Below are positions 5,104 through 59,688 of a DNA stretch of 64,000 bases, piece by piece. The position numbers and the translations under genes were made by a program. The notes beneath the pieces were generated by a model, which made no database searches, was not told the origin of the DNA, and saw only the letters and a list, made by a program, of their open reading frames with translations. Numbering within the stretch: position 1 is the first letter of the stretch; each line of letters starts with the position of its first letter. The stretch comes from Alienimonas californiensis. GTDB taxonomy: Bacteria; Planctomycetota; Planctomycetia; Planctomycetales; Planctomycetaceae. The DNA lies in the NCBI RefSeq assembly GCF_007743815.1, contig NZ_CP036265.1:3986823-4050822 (forward strand), written 5' to 3'.

Positions 5104-5593
5104 GACGGGGTTTCCTCGGAGACGGGCGACGGACGGACCGATCCGGCGGTCCCGGACGGACCCGGCGGTCGGGGCCGCGGGACAGGGGGCGCTGGATTGG
5201 GGGGGCGCTGCTCGGACCAGTCGGTCCGTCGGTCCGATCGGCAGAACCCGCCAGTCCGCTTGAACCGGCCCCACGTTCCCGACGCTCGCGCCCCACCCCT
5301 TCGCCCGCCCGGCACGTCGCCCACGGTTGCTACGCCCCGTACCCCTCACCCTATTCACCCCCACCACGCCTCACGCCTCGGGGGGCGGACGCCCCCCGCT
5401 CGCCCCGGGCCGGGGGCCGGCGGACCCGCAAACCTTCCCTAACCGTCTTGTCGGTCGGGGGCGGGGCGGATAGCTTCGCCGCTCGTCCCGCGATCCGCCC
5501 CGTGCGATCGACCGGGCCGCCAGTTCGTCTGCCTGTTTGTCAGGAGGCCCGGGTTCTTCCCCCGGGCGACCGGTTTCCACGGAGCGCCCCCCG
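5104..5593. other. Divergent intergenic region
   Basis: This 490-base gap separates the secreted-protein gene (minus) from the epimerase gene (plus). It must contain promoters for both, though no clear -35/-10 pair stands out. It has several GGWCC-rich short direct repeats (about 5130-5245) and one copy of the dispersed palindromic repeat at 5372-5404. No convincing gene is present. Confidence 0.5.
5372..5404 (-). repeat. Dispersed palindromic repeat (GGCGAGCGGGGG family)
   Basis: The sequence reads CACGCCTCGGGGGG then CGGACG then CCCCCCGCTCGCC. The outer G and C runs pair around a short loop. The same core recurs at 13671, 14260, 20930, 34441, 34491, 51017 and 51064. Confidence 0.7.
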
Positions 5594-6352
5594 GTGTACG
5601 TCGCTGTTTCGACCGAGAGTTTCCTTCCCGCCGCGGGGCCGAGCCCCTCGCTGGCGGACCTCTGCGAACGGGCCGCCGAGGCCGGGTTCGACAAGCTCGA
5701 ACTGCACCTGGACGAGGCCGAGAGCCCGCTGAAGCCCTCCCAGATCGCCGCCGCCCCGGAGCGGTTCGTGGCGATGTTTCGGGAGACGACCCGGCTGACC
5801 CCGGTCGCCTTCTGCCTCGCCGACGACGTGTCCCCCTCCGTCACCGCCGGGCTGGCGAAGGCGGCGAAGCACCTCAAGATCGCCCAGCTGACCGTGCCGG
5901 CCTCGCCGCTGGGCACGCCCTTCAACGACGAGGTCGATCGCCTGAAGGCCCACCACGCGGCCGCCTCGCCGGAGGCCGTCCGCGTCTCCGTCCGGGTGCG
6001 GTCCGGCGAACTGACCGAGGACCCGGACACCGCGGTGCAGCTCTGCAAGGCGGTGAAGGGGCTGGGTATCACCTTCGACCCCAGCTACTTCGTCTCCGGC
6101 CCCTACGCCGACGTCGATCGCGAGGCCGTGTACCGGCACGTGTTCCACGTCCACCTGCGGGACACCTCCAAGGATCGCCTGCAGGTGAAGACCGGCCTGG
6201 GCGAAATTGACTACGCCAAGCTGATCGCCCGGCTGGAGCGGGAGGGCTACCGCGGCGCCCTCTCCGTCGATCTGCTGCCCGAGACCGTGACCGCCGAGGA
6301 GCGGGCGCTGGAACTCCGCAAACTGCGGATGCTGCTCGAAACGCTGCTGTAG
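5594..6352 (+). CDS. Sugar phosphate isomerase/epimerase-like TIM-barrel protein
   Basis: The GTG at 5594 is preferred because GGAG lies nine bases upstream (5581-5584); the frame is open from TTG 5537, but the AGGAGG there lies after that codon. The 252-residue product begins VYVAVSTESF and contains the strands of the AP-endonuclease-2/xylose isomerase-like barrel: GFDKLELHLDEA, FHVHLRDTSKD, and YRGALSVDLLPE near the end. Such enzymes isomerise or epimerise small sugars using a divalent metal. The usual Glu/Asp/His ligands are only partly visible (His in HVHLRD, Asp in SVDLL), so the reaction is not assignable. It is transcribed alone. Confidence 0.75.
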   Translation: MYVAVSTESFLPAAGPSPSLADLCERAAEAGFDKLELHLDEAESPLKPSQIAAAPERFVAMFRETTRLTPVAFCLADDVSPSVTAGLAKAAKHLKIAQLTVPASPLGTPFNDEVDRLKAHHAAASPEAVRVSVRVRSGELTEDPDTAVQLCKAVKGLGITFDPSYFVSGPYADVDREAVYRHVFHVHLRDTSKDRLQVKTGLGEIDYAKLIARLEREGYRGALSVDLLPETVTAEERALELRKLRMLLETLL

Positions 6353-6382: not shown

Positions 6383-6446
6383 TGTGAGCCCGAAGCGCAA
6401 GTGAGGTTCGGAGTCGTCCCTGCCTCGCTTGCGCTTCGGGCTCACA
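6383..6446. repeat. Long inverted repeat / terminator, planctomycete type
   Basis: The arms TGTGAGCCCGAAGCGCAAG (6383-6401) and CTTGCGCTTCGGGCTCACA (6428-6446) are perfect complements over 19 bases and extend inward to 24 with one G-T mismatch. It lies between convergent genes ending at 6352 and 6478. The motif GAGCCCGAAGCGCAAGCGAG is, to my knowledge, widespread between planctomycete genes, so it is both a dispersed repeat and a likely bidirectional terminator. Confidence 0.8.
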
Positions 6447-6477: not shown

Positions 6478-8115
6478 TCAGGACGCGGCCCGGGCGGCGA
6501 CGACCTCCGCGGCGGCCCGGGCCAGTTCGCGGGAGCCCATCGGCTTGAAGAACAGCCGATCGACGCCGAGTTCCTCCAGCCCCTCGTGCAGGCGGGCGTC
6601 CAGCGAGCCGGACAGCACGATGAGCCCCGGGCGGCGGGGCCGTTCCAGCAGTTTCCGACAAAGCGCCCGGCCGTTCAGCTCCGGCATTTGCAGGTCGGTG
6701 ACGACCACGTCGCACTCCAGGCCGGCGTCCAGCAGCTCCAGCGCCTCGCGACCGTTCTGGGCGGTGCGGCACTCAAAGCCCTGCTTCGTCAGCCCCCGGG
6801 CCGTCACCAGTCGCTCGGCGACATGGTCGTCCACCACCAGCGCCCGGAGGGCCGGTCGCCCCGCCTCCCCGGTGACGGTCCGGCTCGCCTCGGAGGGTTC
6901 CCCCTCGGACGGGGGCGGGGACGCGGCGGGCAGTTCGAGGCCGACGTTCGTGCCGGTGGGCGTGGTGTCCAGCGTCACGCGGCCGCCGTGGTGTTCGGCG
7001 ACGCCCTGCACGACCGCCATCCCCAGCCCCGTGCTCCGGGCGGGCGGCCTGGCGGTGACGAAGGGGTCGAACATCTGGTCGCGGATCGCGGCGGGAACGC
7101 CGGGGCCGGTGTCGGAGACCTCAAACCGCACAAAGTCGCCGGCCGGCACCTCGGGCGGCGCCACGTCCGCCGGGACGCGGCGGGCGGCGAGCGTCAGTCG
7201 GCCGCCCCCGCGGGCCTCCATCGCGTCCCGGGCGTACAGGCAGAGGTTCAACAGGGCCTGTTGAAGCTCCGCCCGATCGGCGTGCACCGTGCCGGGGGGC
7301 TCGGGGACGTCGTTGAACCGCAGGTCGATCTGATCGCCGAACAGCGGCCGGATCAGCGAGAGCAGTTCGCACAGCTCCTCCCGGGGGTCGAGCGTCGTCG
7401 GCGCCGCCAAGGGTTGGCGACTGAGGTTGAGCAGACGGTGCGTCAGCGTCGAGGCCCGGTCCGCGGCGGCCCGGATGCGTTCGAGGTCCGCGACGAGCTC
7501 CGGCGTCGCCGCCCCACGGTCGGGGGCGCCGGCGTGGCGGGAGATCGTATCCAGCAGGTGGCGGAACTCCTGGGCGACGCCGCCGGTCAGAGCGCCGAGC
7601 GTTTCCCGCCGGCTCCGGCGGCGGATCGTTTCGCCCAGCACCCGCAGTCGGGCTTCGGCAAGGCGACGGGCCGTGCTGTCGGCGTAGGTTCCCACCACGC
7701 CGACGATCGCCCCGTGGTCGTCCCGCAGCGGCGCCTTACGAATCTCCAGCCAGCGTTCGCCGCCTCGCGGCGACGTCGCCGCTTCCACGACGATCGCCTC
7801 CGGTTGGGCGTCGGCCAGTAACGCCGCGTCGTCGCTTCGCAGCCCCTGAATCGGCCCCGCCGGCCACGGCAGTTCCTCGTCGGTGCGACCCGCCACCTCC
7901 TCCGGCCGGGCGACGCCCGCGTCCTCCGCGAACGCCCGGTTGCACCCCAGATACCGCCCGTCGGCCGTTCGCCAGAAGACCCGCTGGGGGAGTTCGTTCA
8001 GGACCGACTGAAGCACGCAGCCGTCCACCTCCTGCCGATCGGCGGCTCTCCCGTGGGCGGCTCTCCCTGGGGCGGGGGGCGGCGGGGCGGGCGGTTCGGT
8101 CGGGTCGGTTCCCAT
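6478..8115 (-). CDS. PAS / degenerate histidine kinase / receiver protein
   Basis: The 545-residue soluble protein has a PAS domain (about 33-150), a dimerisation-like helix pair (about 160-235), a GHKL ATPase-like domain (about 240-397) and a C-terminal receiver (about 423-543). The receiver looks functional: acidic pair D429/D430, phosphoacceptor D474 in VTDLQMP and K524 in FFKP. The kinase core does not: the H-box reads GGVAQEFRHLL with Gln182 (CAG) where His is expected, and the N-box reads NLCLYARDAM with Tyr294 in place of the Mg-binding Asn. The G1 (DTGPGV) and G2 (GLGMA) motifs remain. It probably cannot autophosphorylate by the usual route. No membrane segment is seen. Confidence 0.85.
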   Translation of the reverse strand: MGTDPTEPPAPPPPAPGRAAHGRAADRQEVDGCVLQSVLNELPQRVFWRTADGRYLGCNRAFAEDAGVARPEEVAGRTDEELPWPAGPIQGLRSDDAALLADAQPEAIVVEAATSPRGGERWLEIRKAPLRDDHGAIVGVVGTYADSTARRLAEARLRVLGETIRRRSRRETLGALTGGVAQEFRHLLDTISRHAGAPDRGAATPELVADLERIRAAADRASTLTHRLLNLSRQPLAAPTTLDPREELCELLSLIRPLFGDQIDLRFNDVPEPPGTVHADRAELQQALLNLCLYARDAMEARGGGRLTLAARRVPADVAPPEVPAGDFVRFEVSDTGPGVPAAIRDQMFDPFVTARPPARSTGLGMAVVQGVAEHHGGRVTLDTTPTGTNVGLELPAASPPPSEGEPSEASRTVTGEAGRPALRALVVDDHVAERLVTARGLTKQGFECRTAQNGREALELLDAGLECDVVVTDLQMPELNGRALCRKLLERPRRPGLIVLSGSLDARLHEGLEELGVDRLFFKPMGSRELARAAAEVVAARAAS

Positions 8116-8330
8116 CGCGGCGGGGCGGCGGAAGGGGGGCGGGAAATAGCGGCGACGCGAACCGGCCCGGTTTCGACGGCCGAACCATGCAGCGCCGCCC
8201 CCGGCGAAGGAAGGGCGACCCGGGCGAACGCATAGGAATCTGTTGAAACTTTATCCGTTGAGCCGGACGAACGCTCGGAACCGCGTCGTCCCGGCGGTTC
8301 CCGCGTGAACCCCGGCCGGCCGGATCGGTC

Positions 8331-8336
8331 TATACT
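8331..8336 (+). promoter_or_regulatory. Putative -10 element giving a leaderless sufE mRNA
   Basis: TATACT lies eight bases before the sufE ATG (8344), so transcription would begin at or next to the start codon. A weak -35 candidate, GTGAAC at 8305-8310, is 20 bases upstream, and no Shine-Dalgarno sequence is present. This fits a leaderless transcript. Confidence 0.45.
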
Positions 8337-8343
8337 CCCCCCC

Positions 8344-8826
8344 ATGACGTTTCCGACCACGCCTCCCGCCAGACCGGCCCCCGTGCCCGCCAAACCGGCC
8401 TCCGTCGTTCCCCCGCTGGACGAACTCCGTGAGGAGTTCGAGTTCCTGGGGAACTGGGAGGACCAGTGCGAGTTTTTGATCGACGTCGGCATGGACCTGC
8501 CCCGCCTGCCGGAGCAGGACAAGACCGAGGAGACCCGCGTGCACGGCTGCCAGAGCCTTGTCTGGATGACCGTCGGCGAGCAGGACGGCCGCCTCCGCAT
8601 CGCCGCCGAGAGCGACGCGATGATCGTCAACGGCCTGATCGCCGTGCTCTTGGCGACCTTCGACGGCAAAACCCCCGCCGAGGCCCTCGCCGTGGACGTG
8701 GACGAGGTCTTCGCCTCCCTCGGCCTCGACGAACATCTGTCGTCCGCCCGCAAAAGCGGCTTGGCGGGGATGGTTCAACGCATCCGCGGCGAAGCGGCGA
8801 GGTATCGAGTGGAGGGGGCGGAATGA
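8344..8826 (+). CDS. sufE: SufE, cysteine desulfurase sulfur acceptor
   Basis: The 160-residue product takes the persulfide sulfur from SufS and passes it to the Fe-S scaffold in the cytosol. The family core starts at LREEFEFLGNWEDQCEFLID and includes the conserved acceptor Cys69 in VHGCQSLVWM and the FDGKTPAEAL segment. A Pro/Ala-rich extension of about 30 residues precedes the core. The frame is open from 8305, but ATG 8344 is the first methionine and follows a good -10 element. The stop overlaps the sufS start as ATGA, implying translational coupling. The usual order sufCDSE is not seen nearby, so the scaffold genes must be elsewhere. Confidence 0.93.
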   Translation: MTFPTTPPARPAPVPAKPASVVPPLDELREEFEFLGNWEDQCEFLIDVGMDLPRLPEQDKTEETRVHGCQSLVWMTVGEQDGRLRIAAESDAMIVNGLIAVLLATFDGKTPAEALAVDVDEVFASLGLDEHLSSARKSGLAGMVQRIRGEAARYRVEGAE

Positions 8827-10121
8827 ACCAGACATCCCCCGCCCCGGAGGCCCGGGTCTCCCAGGTCATCGACGCCCCGCCGCCGAACACGCCGCTGGAC
8901 GTGGACGCCGTTCGGGCTCAGTTTCCGATCCTCAACCGGCCGCTGCCCAACGGGAAGGCGCTGACGTACCTCGACAGCGGCGCCACCGCCCAGAAGCCGG
9001 CCGTCGTGCTGGACGCGATGCGGGAGTGCTTCGAGAACTACTACTCCAACGTCCACCGCGGCAAAAGCACGCTCGGTCGGCAAGTGACCGGCGCCGTGGA
9101 GCAGGCCCGCGAGGACTGCCGCCGGTTCGTGGGCGCCGCCGACGCCTCCGAGATCGTCTTCACCGCCGGCACGACCGCGGGGATCAACCTCGTCGCCGAC
9201 ACCTGGGCTCGGGCGAACCTGCAACGGGGCGACGTGATCGCCACCACGCTGCTGGAGCACCACGCCAACCTCGTGCCCTGGCAGATGGTCGCCGCACAGA
9301 CCGGCGCCGAACTGCGGTTCCTGCCGCTCACCGACGACGGCCGGATCGACATGAGCCGTCTAGACGAGGCGCTCACGGACCGCACGAAGCTGCTGGCGGT
9401 GACGGCCTGCTCGAACGTCCTCGGCACGCTGCCGGACGTGAAGGCGCTGTGCGACGCGGCGAGGGCTGTCGGGGCGGTCAGCGTGATCGACGCCGCCCAG
9501 TTCGTGCCGCACCGCCGCACCGACGTCCGTGCCTGGGGCTGCGATTTCCTCACGTTCAGCGGCCACAAGCTCTACGGCCCCACCGGCGTCGGCGTGCTGT
9601 ACGGCCGGCGGGACCTGCTGGAGGCCATGCCGCCCTGGCAGGGCGGGGGGAACATGATCCACCGGGTCTTCGCCGACCGCAGCGAATGGGCGCCGCCCCC
9701 GGCGAAGTTCGAGGCCGGCACCCCGCCGATCGCGGAGGTCATTGGGCTCGGCGCCGCGGTAAACTGGGTCGAATCGCTCGACTGGGAGGCGATCGAACAG
9801 CACGACGCCGAACTCGCCGCCTACGCCCTCGAACGCCTGCAAGAGGTGCCCGGCCTGACCGTCTACGGCCCGTCGGCGGAGCATCGGGCCGCCCTCGCCA
9901 GCTTCACGGTCGAGGGCGCCGCCGCGGAGGACCTGAACTTCCTCCTCGATCGTCGCGGCATTGCCGTCCGCCACGGCCACCACTGCACGATGCCGCTGCA
10001 CGATCTGCTGGGCGTCCCGGCGACGACCCGGGCCAGCTTCGGCGTCTACAACACGCCGGCGGAGGTGGACGTGCTCATCGAAGCCCTCCTCGCCGCCCGC
10101 ATCCGGCTGCGGTTGGGGTAA
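8823..10121 (+). CDS. sufS: SufS, cysteine desulfurase
   Basis: The 432-residue PLP enzyme releases sulfur from L-cysteine as an enzyme persulfide, making alanine, for Fe-S cluster assembly. Family marks are YLDSGATAQKP near the N-terminus, NVHRGKSTLG, the PLP lysine K249 in FSGHKLYGPTG, and the active-site Cys388 in RHGHHCTMPLH. A non-homologous stretch of about 30 residues precedes the core. The start ATG at 8823 overlaps the sufE stop by four bases, so the pair is one operon. The length and the RxGHHC motif mark the group II (SufS) type rather than IscS. Confidence 0.95.
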   Translation: MNQTSPAPEARVSQVIDAPPPNTPLDVDAVRAQFPILNRPLPNGKALTYLDSGATAQKPAVVLDAMRECFENYYSNVHRGKSTLGRQVTGAVEQAREDCRRFVGAADASEIVFTAGTTAGINLVADTWARANLQRGDVIATTLLEHHANLVPWQMVAAQTGAELRFLPLTDDGRIDMSRLDEALTDRTKLLAVTACSNVLGTLPDVKALCDAARAVGAVSVIDAAQFVPHRRTDVRAWGCDFLTFSGHKLYGPTGVGVLYGRRDLLEAMPPWQGGGNMIHRVFADRSEWAPPPAKFEAGTPPIAEVIGLGAAVNWVESLDWEAIEQHDAELAAYALERLQEVPGLTVYGPSAEHRAALASFTVEGAAAEDLNFLLDRRGIAVRHGHHCTMPLHDLLGVPATTRASFGVYNTPAEVDVLIEALLAARIRLRLG

Positions 10122-10168
10122 GGCTGACTTAGTTGACCGGGACGCAAACTGGCCGACGGTGTTCTCGG

Positions 10169-11218
10169 CTAATTGGCTTCCTGCATGGCGGCGATGACTA
10201 AGTCTCGCACAAAGGAGTTGAGTTCCGTTATTAGCTCCTCCGGTTTCTGGCCGCGCCCGGAATTACCTTCGTGGACGAGTTTGCTACGAATCGAATAACA
10301 TTGCTCGAAGAACTTGCCCGCGGCTTTTCCGTTATAGGTCTTTCCGGCAAGGAGCGACTCAGCCAGCTTCCTGCCGGAGCGTCCAATGGAGTCGCGGAAC
10401 AGCCAGTCAAGGCTCCCGCAGATTGACTGTTTCTCGTCTTGCGGAAGTTCTGACTCTCGAGTTTGCGAAATCAACGACCGGACGTGGCTTTGCACTACGT
10501 CTGACCTTTCCGACGGTTCGAGGATTGCCTCGACGGCCATGACAAGTGCGAGAAATCGACTACGGATCGACGATTCAAAATAAGAGGCGTTCAAAAGCTC
10601 GCAGGCAATCTCCTGTCTTGCGGTCGGCTTAAGGTTCATTGCGTGAGCTTTCTGAAGCTTCAGAATGAAATCCTCCCCGTCATGCTCGCCAGTCAGCCGT
10701 CCACAAGTACTAGCGAACCGGGTGGGGAGGCTGCTGTTGTAAACGAGAAGCCCGTGCACATCGTTTAGGACGGTCACTCCAGTTCCACGGCGAACTTTGT
10801 CTCTTAGATAGTCCGAGATTCCGCCTGAAGCGACGTTCTTGCCCAAGTCGACGCCCATCCCGGTGCTAATCGAACAGCCGATCAGTGCGGCCCGAGCCTT
10901 TCTTCCCTCTATTTCGGCGGAGGCTTTCGAACGGAACGGCCCTCCCGAGAGTATAAGACAGGAACTGTCCGCGATCGGTTCGCCGGTGCAGGATCGAAGC
11001 GTCAATTGTGGCTCGCCTGCGTTGGCAGGTATTGCAACCTCTCGCTGTTTAATCCCGATCCTGCGTTGCGAAGGCAGGAGAAACCGCACTCTGAAGGAAT
11101 ACTCCGGATTCGGCAAATTCGACGGCACCGAGGTCGGTGGGGCGTGATCCGGCTGCGGCACCTGCTTATTGAGCAATCTCCCAATGAATCTGACAGCAGC
11201 GGCCACTAGTTTCAGCAT
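10169..11218 (-). CDS. ApeA-like HEPN domain protein, candidate RNase/defence gene
   Basis: The 349-residue product has a long N-terminal region of unknown fold (about 1-190) and a helical C-terminal domain (about 195-345) resembling Apea-type HEPN domains: RFLALVMAVEAILEP early and YSIRSKLVHEGN late. The latter gives the RNase-type motif R311-x4-H316. Such HEPN proteins commonly act in abortive phage defence or toxin systems. The gene has about 55% G+C in the 360 bases I counted, well below its neighbours. ATG 11218 is chosen because the upstream open frame overlaps the ThuA gene. No partner gene adjoins it. Recent acquisition is inference. Confidence 0.75.
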   Translation of the reverse strand: MLKLVAAAVRFIGRLLNKQVPQPDHAPPTSVPSNLPNPEYSFRVRFLLPSQRRIGIKQREVAIPANAGEPQLTLRSCTGEPIADSSCLILSGGPFRSKASAEIEGRKARAALIGCSISTGMGVDLGKNVASGGISDYLRDKVRRGTGVTVLNDVHGLLVYNSSLPTRFASTCGRLTGEHDGEDFILKLQKAHAMNLKPTARQEIACELLNASYFESSIRSRFLALVMAVEAILEPSERSDVVQSHVRSLISQTRESELPQDEKQSICGSLDWLFRDSIGRSGRKLAESLLAGKTYNGKAAGKFFEQCYSIRSKLVHEGNSGRGQKPEELITELNSFVRDLVIAAMQEAN

Positions 11219-58965: not shown

Positions 58966-59688
58966 TCAGCGAGCCGTGGGGAGCGCGATCCGGAACGTGG
59001 TGCCGGACGGGCCGCTTTCGCAATGCACGCGGCCGCCGTGGGCCTCGACGATCTTTCGGACGGTCGGCAGGCCGAGCCCGCTGCCGCCGGGTTTGGTGGA
59101 GAAGAACGGGTCCCACATCGTGGCGAGGGCGTCGGCCGGCACGCCAGGGCCGTTGTCGGCGACGCTCAGTTCCACCGCCCCGCCGGCGGGGCCGACGAGG
59201 ATCGGCCGGGTCGCCACCTCGATGTGCGGCAGCGGCGTGCCCTCGCCCACGAGCGCCTGCTGGGCGTTCAGCGCCAGGTTGAGCAACGCCTGCCGCATCA
59301 ACCGGACGTCCAGCCGCACCGGCGGCAGGTCCGCGGCCGGCAGGAGGGTGAGCCGCACCCCAGCGGCGGCGGCGGCGGGGCGAAAGAACTCCGCGAATTC
59401 CCGCACCAGCCGGTTCAGGTCCGCCTCCTTCAGATCCGGCTCGCCGGCCCGCGCGAAGGCGAGAAAGGCGTCGAGGATCTCCGAAAGGTGCCCGCACTCC
59501 CGCTGCACGGTTCGCAGCATCCGCTTTCGCCGGGCGGTGGGACGATCGTCGGCTTCGTCCGGCTCCGTCCCCCCCAGGCTTTCCGCCAGCAGTTCGAGAT
59601 TCAGCCCGATCGTGGAGAGCGGGTTCCGGATCTCGTGCGCCAGCCCCCCGGCGAGGACGGCGATGTCGTGGGGCGTGTCGTCGGACAT
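58966..59688 (-). CDS. Short soluble histidine kinase (NtrB-like)
   Basis: The 240-residue kinase has no sensor domain or membrane segment. The H-box LAGGLAHEIRNPLS places the phosphorylated His at residue 18; the N-box QALLNLALNAQQAL and G boxes VADNGPGVP and GSGLGLPTVRKI are intact. So it is a minimal catalytic core. Input must come from a partner protein or from its stability. It is first in line with the NtrC-type regulator. ATG 59688 is just beyond the terminator of pnp on the same strand. Confidence 0.9.
   Translation of the reverse strand: MSDDTPHDIAVLAGGLAHEIRNPLSTIGLNLELLAESLGGTEPDEADDRPTARRKRMLRTVQRECGHLSEILDAFLAFARAGEPDLKEADLNRLVREFAEFFRPAAAAAGVRLTLLPAADLPPVRLDVRLMRQALLNLALNAQQALVGEGTPLPHIEVATRPILVGPAGGAVELSVADNGPGVPADALATMWDPFFSTKPGGSGLGLPTVRKIVEAHGGRVHCESGPSGTTFRIALPTAR

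Follow-up and report, generated by a model that had tools for sequence, protein, structure and literature searches.

The window analysed here is a stretch of 64,000 nucleotides from the genome of Alienimonas californiensis. On its reverse strand, at positions 6478-8115, lies an open reading frame that starts with ATG and runs through 545 codons without a stop or frameshift. From the reading frame and its Pfam matches we annotate the 545-residue product as a pseudo-hybrid histidine kinase (hereafter the pseudokinase) with the domain order PAS-HisKA-HATPase_c-REC. Pfam models detect, each above its cut-off, a PAS_4 domain (residues 40-151, positions 7663-7998; 57.3 bits), a HATPase_c (CA) domain (residues 280-397, 6925-7278; 64.5 bits) and a Response_reg receiver domain (residues 426-534, 6514-6840; 64.3 bits), all on the reverse strand. 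The DHp (HisKA) region (residues 160-236, 7408-7638, same strand) falls below the Pfam cut-off, the HisKA model scoring 16.1 bits over residues 175-233 against a required 26.9. GC content at the three codon positions is 0.795, 0.54 and 0.888, a pattern shared with the five genes compared, and the values at the first two positions are the highest in that comparison. A scan for sigma-70 promoters and terminators returned none of either.

The predicted structure of the pseudokinase has a mean pLDDT of 74.3, with residues 171-183, which contain the H-box, scoring below 50. The model gives fair support to the CA and receiver folds, not to the H-box. Histidine kinases and their relatives predominate among the 50 Foldseek matches listed for this model. 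The tenth-ranked match is NifL in its complex with NifA (9qq6), at a TMq of 0.34, which indicates low global fold agreement with the predicted structure. NifL combines a PAS domain with a kinase-like core and exerts its control without phosphotransfer; it is not known to carry a receiver and acts on a dedicated partner, NifA.

The pseudokinase gene lies between two Pfam-annotated genes on the forward strand, one encoding a xylose-isomerase-like TIM barrel protein (5537-6352) and the other SufE (8305-8826), which is followed by a SufS-like aminotransferase (frame 8466-10121). The isomerase and pseudokinase genes converge, and a near-perfect palindrome (6383-6446) lies between their 3' ends; its 24-nucleotide arms are 96% complementary (TGTGAGCCCGAAGCGCAAGTGAGG). 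Within the window, the 18-base core of this element is confined to the two arms when up to two mismatches are allowed, and the palindrome is perhaps a REP-like element or a terminator. A second histidine kinase is encoded in the window at 58966-59688 on the reverse strand; it comprises 240 residues with HisKA and HATPase_c domains and has both His and Asn.

Where the phospho-accepting His of the H-box is expected, the pseudokinase has Gln182 (CAG, 7570-7572, reverse strand), and where the N-box Asn is expected it has Tyr294 (TAC, 7234-7236, reverse strand). The initial annotation had already read Gln182 in place of His and Tyr294 in place of the Mg-binding Asn, and the codons and an HMMER alignment to the DHp-CA chain of CckA (5idj, an ADP/Mg complex) confirm both readings: Q182 stands opposite the H of GGVAHDFNN and Y294 opposite the second N of NLAVNARDA. 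E183, next to Q182, is retained. CckA (5idj, 5idm) is the best solved sequence match to the pseudokinase (103 bits over residues 168-387) and shares with it the GGVAHDFNN and NARDA box types, but unlike the pseudokinase it retains the His and the Asn. The pseudokinase was not identified as CckA itself: its matches to the NCBIfam CckA equivalog models, at 163 and 155.7 bits, fall short of the cut-offs of 1000.

We assessed the conservation of these positions in an alignment of 64 homologue rows, made up of the best frames of 49 loci (L021-L051, L141-L150, L152-L159) minus L033, which belongs to another subfamily and retains both His and Asn, plus L209, L210 and 14 loci from the class of G460, a distant genome of the same phylum. 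The rows are best-match loci, and 78 loci (L052-L129) of one 80-locus search stand outside the count. The H-box His is present in all 64 rows (absent in 0/64) and the N-box Asn in 63, the one row lacking it (1/64) being L209. The 14 matches other than L209, from 12 genomes of the class of G460, all retain His and Asn. The Asn residues at +3 and +4 from the H-box His (positions 185 and 186) are found in 64/64 homologues.

The same residues are kept within the genome that carries the pseudokinase. Thirty of its 44 HATPase_c matches were fetched; inspection by eye assigned 25 of them to other HisKA-type kinases, all of which retain His and Asn. The remaining five include the window gene, a HisKA_3-like frame and a fragment that has no DHp region, and two more are presumably topoisomerase subunits, which they resemble. 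One own-genome kinase (L178; G000:C1:3524654-3524965) has the H-box AHEVRHP, in which a second His stands at +4 beside the normal His. In a published census, the His was missing in 722 of 76,471 HisKA domains (0.9%; PMC12632262). Loss of the HisKA His is therefore uncommon, but precedented.

The pseudokinase also has a His of its own at +4. His186 (CAC, 7558-7560, reverse strand) occupies the phosphatase position at which Asn is expected, one helical turn past Gln182, and could in principle substitute as phospho-acceptor or serve a rewired phosphatase. It would lie on the same helix as Gln182 in the predicted structure, although model confidence is low there, and a like proposal has been made for H151 of the Caulobacter protein CCNA_03265 (PMC11481889). 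However, we regard the chance that His186 acts in this way as remote. The residue is not conserved, position 186 being Asn in every homologue, and only 3/64 homologues have His at position 194, so that no other conserved His emerges in this helix, an outcome that favours the initial annotation. The Mg-binding Asn and residues of the lid are also changed, such that ATP would hardly be presented to His186, and the own-genome kinase with a His at +4 still retains its normal His.

The changes in the transmitter go beyond Q182 and Y294. They include N185R, N186H and G193R in the DHp region and F353V, T355A, K356R and G361S in the ATP-lid stretch (residues 353-361, 7033-7059, reverse strand). With L033 dropped and a conservation threshold of at least 95% of homologues applied to the alignment columns, the pseudokinase has lost 4 of 11 in the DHp region (H182, N185, N186 and G193) and 5 of 23 in the CA domain (N294, F353, T355, K356 and G361), or 9 of 34 across the transmitter with 25 kept. 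None of the 13 receiver columns conserved at this level is lost (one-sided Fisher p = 0.038). At a 90% threshold the losses are 11 of 45 in the transmitter versus 1 of 15 in the receiver, and the contrast is not significant (p = 0.13). The G1 motif (DTGPG) is retained, as are D335, G337, G339, F349/P351/F352 and most of GTGLGL, whereas changes have reached the lid and, at G361, the entry to G2. These changes were missed by the initial annotation, which had described the PAS domain, G boxes and receiver motifs as kept.

The extent of these changes bears on whether the two unusual residues might reflect an error in sequencing or assembly, or a misalignment of the boxes. A single base change in a normal His or Asn codon would give Q182 or Y294, which would suit an error. 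However, the changes affect twelve of the columns conserved at 90% rather than two, the registration of the boxes agrees with CckA 5idj, and the genome is a single contig that is 97.77% complete. An artefact is thus scarcely credible.

The H-box His, the N-box Asn and the +4 Thr/Asn, all of which are expected in a functional HisKA hybrid kinase, are replaced in the pseudokinase, and the +4 Thr/Asn is reported to be needed for HisKA phosphatase activity (PMC3510030). The autokinase and phosphatase activities of the transmitter are, to judge from these residues, very probably both dead. The claim of the initial annotation that this is not a normal autokinase is borne out at the sequence level by Q182 and Y294, and a residual phosphatase role is disfavoured because the +4 Asn has been lost. 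Nucleotide binding, which the initial annotation had also proposed, is doubtful because the protein has lost the Mg-binding Asn together with several residues of the lid, although D335, G337 and G339 are kept. The protein has the sequence features by which a pseudo-histidine kinase has been defined, namely a kinase by sequence that is without the residues for at least one function (PMC12632262).

The receiver, by contrast with the transmitter, retains its active-site set: the acidic pair D429/D430, the predicted phospho-acceptor Asp474 (6694-6696, reverse strand), S502 and the conserved Lys524 (6544-6546, reverse strand). By homologue alignment, it keeps the residues known to be necessary for accepting a phosphoryl group. 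The observation itself, Q182 and Y294 in the transmitter with a retained receiver, is confirmed, and the interpretation given to it by the initial annotation is borne out in part; its proposal that the protein controls its own receiver is an inference.

The explanation that we tentatively favour, with confidence just short of even, is that the pseudokinase combines a dead transmitter with a PAS-gated receiver that is charged in trans and damps or redirects a phosphorelay. The dimer would neither autophosphorylate nor dephosphorylate. The PAS domain would sense a ligand or redox state and, acting through the non-catalytic DHp-CA core, would set the accessibility of Asp474. Because the autokinase is very probably dead, the protein's own receiver, if used, would have to be charged in trans, and this might be done by a hybrid kinase bearing an Hpt domain or by a heterodimer partner. 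The sensor-gated receiver could then serve as a phosphate sink or decoy. Several observations count against this explanation. The receiver as a whole has, like the DHp region and CA domain, the lowest mean identity of 43 rows compared (0.274 for the receiver), so that fast evolution extends beyond the transmitter, although some of the other rows are closely related among themselves, and the comparison is tilted in their favour. The contrast between transmitter and receiver losses is not significant at the 90% threshold. In addition, no two-component or Hpt domain was detected by Pfam in 14 neighbouring frames between positions 341 and 23505, of which 7 have a Pfam match (one under its cut-off) and 7 have none.

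The fast evolution of the pseudokinase could instead mean that a hybrid kinase gene is drifting after loss of function, and that the frame and receiver residues persist as the decay is recent. No orthologue was found, with the Q/Y combination or otherwise, among the sampled genomes of relatives (40 genomes, 1e-30), the genus (2, 1e-8), the order (170, 1e-55), the class (397, 1e-66), the phylum (392, 1e-62) and the class of G460 (12, 1e-75, searched with a two-row alignment). These samples overlap, each count includes the genome at the centre of its search, and the first-look candidates scored per genome numbered 8 for the order, 3 for the class and 3 for the phylum. In the sole congener compared, which is 97% complete, the best match to the pseudokinase is only 26% identical. 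The isomerase and SufE genes, whose proteins are 84% and 77% identical to their congener counterparts, are adjacent there: the matched stretches lie about 140 bases apart, and no DNA match to the pseudokinase was found. Beyond the genus, 19 SufE loci were compared, whose flanks reached about 1.5 kb at most and were in several cases cut off by contig ends; neither the isomerase nor the pseudokinase was found there at 1e-6.

Absence from the congener is one of several features that point to decay. The terminal branch of the pseudokinase is the longest in both the full-length and DHp-CA trees (1.38 and 1.29), albeit in a near tie with two others at 1.37 in the full-length tree. In a leave-one-out comparison of the 49 homologues, with L033 kept, the pseudokinase has lost 12 of 58 columns at 90%, while 48 of the 49 have lost 0 to 10 (L050 being highest, with 10) and L033 has lost 25; at 95% the figures are 8 of 43 for the pseudokinase, 0 to 4 for 48 of the 49 and 15 for L033. 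Its codon-use score of 0.444 is the second lowest of eleven window frames. However, that score is still inside the range of the other ten (0.371-0.622), the frame is uninterrupted, and at 95% the conserved columns of the receiver are all kept, together with most of those in the transmitter. Nor is PAS identity low, 26 of the 43 rows having a lower mean. The pattern speaks for relaxed constraint everywhere except in the PAS domain and the key receiver residues. The long branches and the low identity of the DHp, CA and receiver domains lead us to treat decay as the main rival explanation, if a somewhat unlikely one. The initial annotation, made from the sequence alone, could not have revealed that the gene evolves fast, stands as a singleton, has no counterpart in the compared congener and may be decaying.

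Pseudo-histidine kinases are a recognised group, of which few members have been worked out. The pseudokinase is, on the residues it has lost and kept, a further example of them and not a new system. A close parallel is the Caulobacter hybrid kinase CCNA_03265 (CC3162), which is described as lacking the His and having the receiver Asp (PMC11481889). In both proteins the H-box His is absent, the receiver Asp is kept and another His lies a few residues downstream. Charging by an Hpt protein, a heterodimer and a displaced His are named as possibilities for CCNA_03265 by the authors of that study, which concerns Hmr (PMC11481889). Unlike the pseudokinase, which is known from sequence alone, CCNA_03265 has mutants that are linked to adhesion and motility (PMC11481889).

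A different mode of action is offered by DivL of Caulobacter, in which the phospho-accepting His is likewise replaced, by Tyr550. DivL is described as binding TNP-ATP weakly and as neither a kinase nor a phosphatase, yet it binds DivK~P (PMC4211667). By analogy, the dead transmitter of the pseudokinase could be a scaffold that binds and modulates a phosphorylated regulator or another kinase, with its own receiver secondary. Further precedent comes from a laboratory-evolved, truncated and inactive ChrS, which is reported to promote, directly or indirectly, phosphotransfer by another kinase (PMC9491836). However, DHp positions +3, +4 and +11 are altered in the pseudokinase (N185R, N186H and G193R), and the scanned neighbouring frames include no regulator. 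We take the +4 and +11 positions to lie near the regulator-docking face. DivL differs in acting through DivK~P binding and the steering of CckA, and the account of it drawn on here mentions no receiver of its own (PMC4211667). No DivL model is among the 25 of 108 NCBIfam matches listed for the pseudokinase. We consider a scaffold role improbable.

The subfamily II ethylene receptors of plants also resemble the pseudokinase in joining a sensor to a degenerate kinase domain, in some isoforms with a receiver (PMC4730734). They differ in being eukaryotic membrane sensors of ethylene for which Ser/Thr kinase activity has been reported in vitro (PMC4730734).

If the favoured trans-charging explanation holds, a phosphate donor would be needed, and four Hpt matches were found in the genome that carries the pseudokinase, each within a large open frame. 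One is a 1091-residue frame (L232:103-3378; G000:C1:3823302-3826577) with an ETR1_N match (92.9 bits), two PAS stretches and HisKA, HATPase_c, REC and Hpt domains. Over 124 residues, the first of these PAS stretches shares 40% identity with the PAS region of the pseudokinase. Because of this PAS similarity and the presence of an Hpt domain, and on these alone, we would guess that this ethylene-receptor-like kinase is the likeliest donor in the genome. As a separate observation, two open frames of 492 and 284 residues (L184 and G000:C1:5439016-5439964) share a single HATPase_c match between them, and the second also has a receiver-like match; this is possibly a frameshifted hybrid kinase.

Outside its own genome, the best match to the pseudokinase by E-value in searches with that sequence alone is L209 of G460 (L215:5595-7229; 38% identical), a PAS-HisKA-HATPase-REC protein of 544 residues that is 37-38% identical to it. 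L209 is like the pseudokinase in size, domain order and replacement of the N-box Asn, but it retains the H-box His and the +4 Asn. Its N-box carries N290H and N294H, and its lid and G2 are altered (GAGLSL). Judged by these residues, the CA domain is altered elsewhere too in a compact protein of the same build. L209 was considered as a sister of the pseudokinase but is not put forward as one: the two pair in the full-length tree, with no support value shown at that node, but not in the DHp-CA tree, and the branches are long.

A bolder version of the trans-charging explanation would have the pseudokinase be a fully disarmed hybrid kinase, its kinase, phosphatase and Mg-ATP sites abandoned and its receiver kept, that acts as a tunable sink for a relay headed by the ethylene-receptor-like tripartite kinase with a similar PAS. 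L209, with its CA domain broken independently or jointly, would then mark a recurrent route in the phylum. We hold this combination to be decidedly improbable. As a compact PAS protein with an intact receiver and neither a phosphatase residue nor a Mg-binding Asn, the pseudokinase would nevertheless offer a clean test of the idea of a sink charged in trans; if it is drifting instead, it would show which parts of a hybrid kinase fail earliest.

In G460, two frames lie upstream of L209 on the same strand, at 7396-8628 and 9469-10680. Read by eye, both resemble FHA/Ser-Thr kinase proteins, which we presume them to be.
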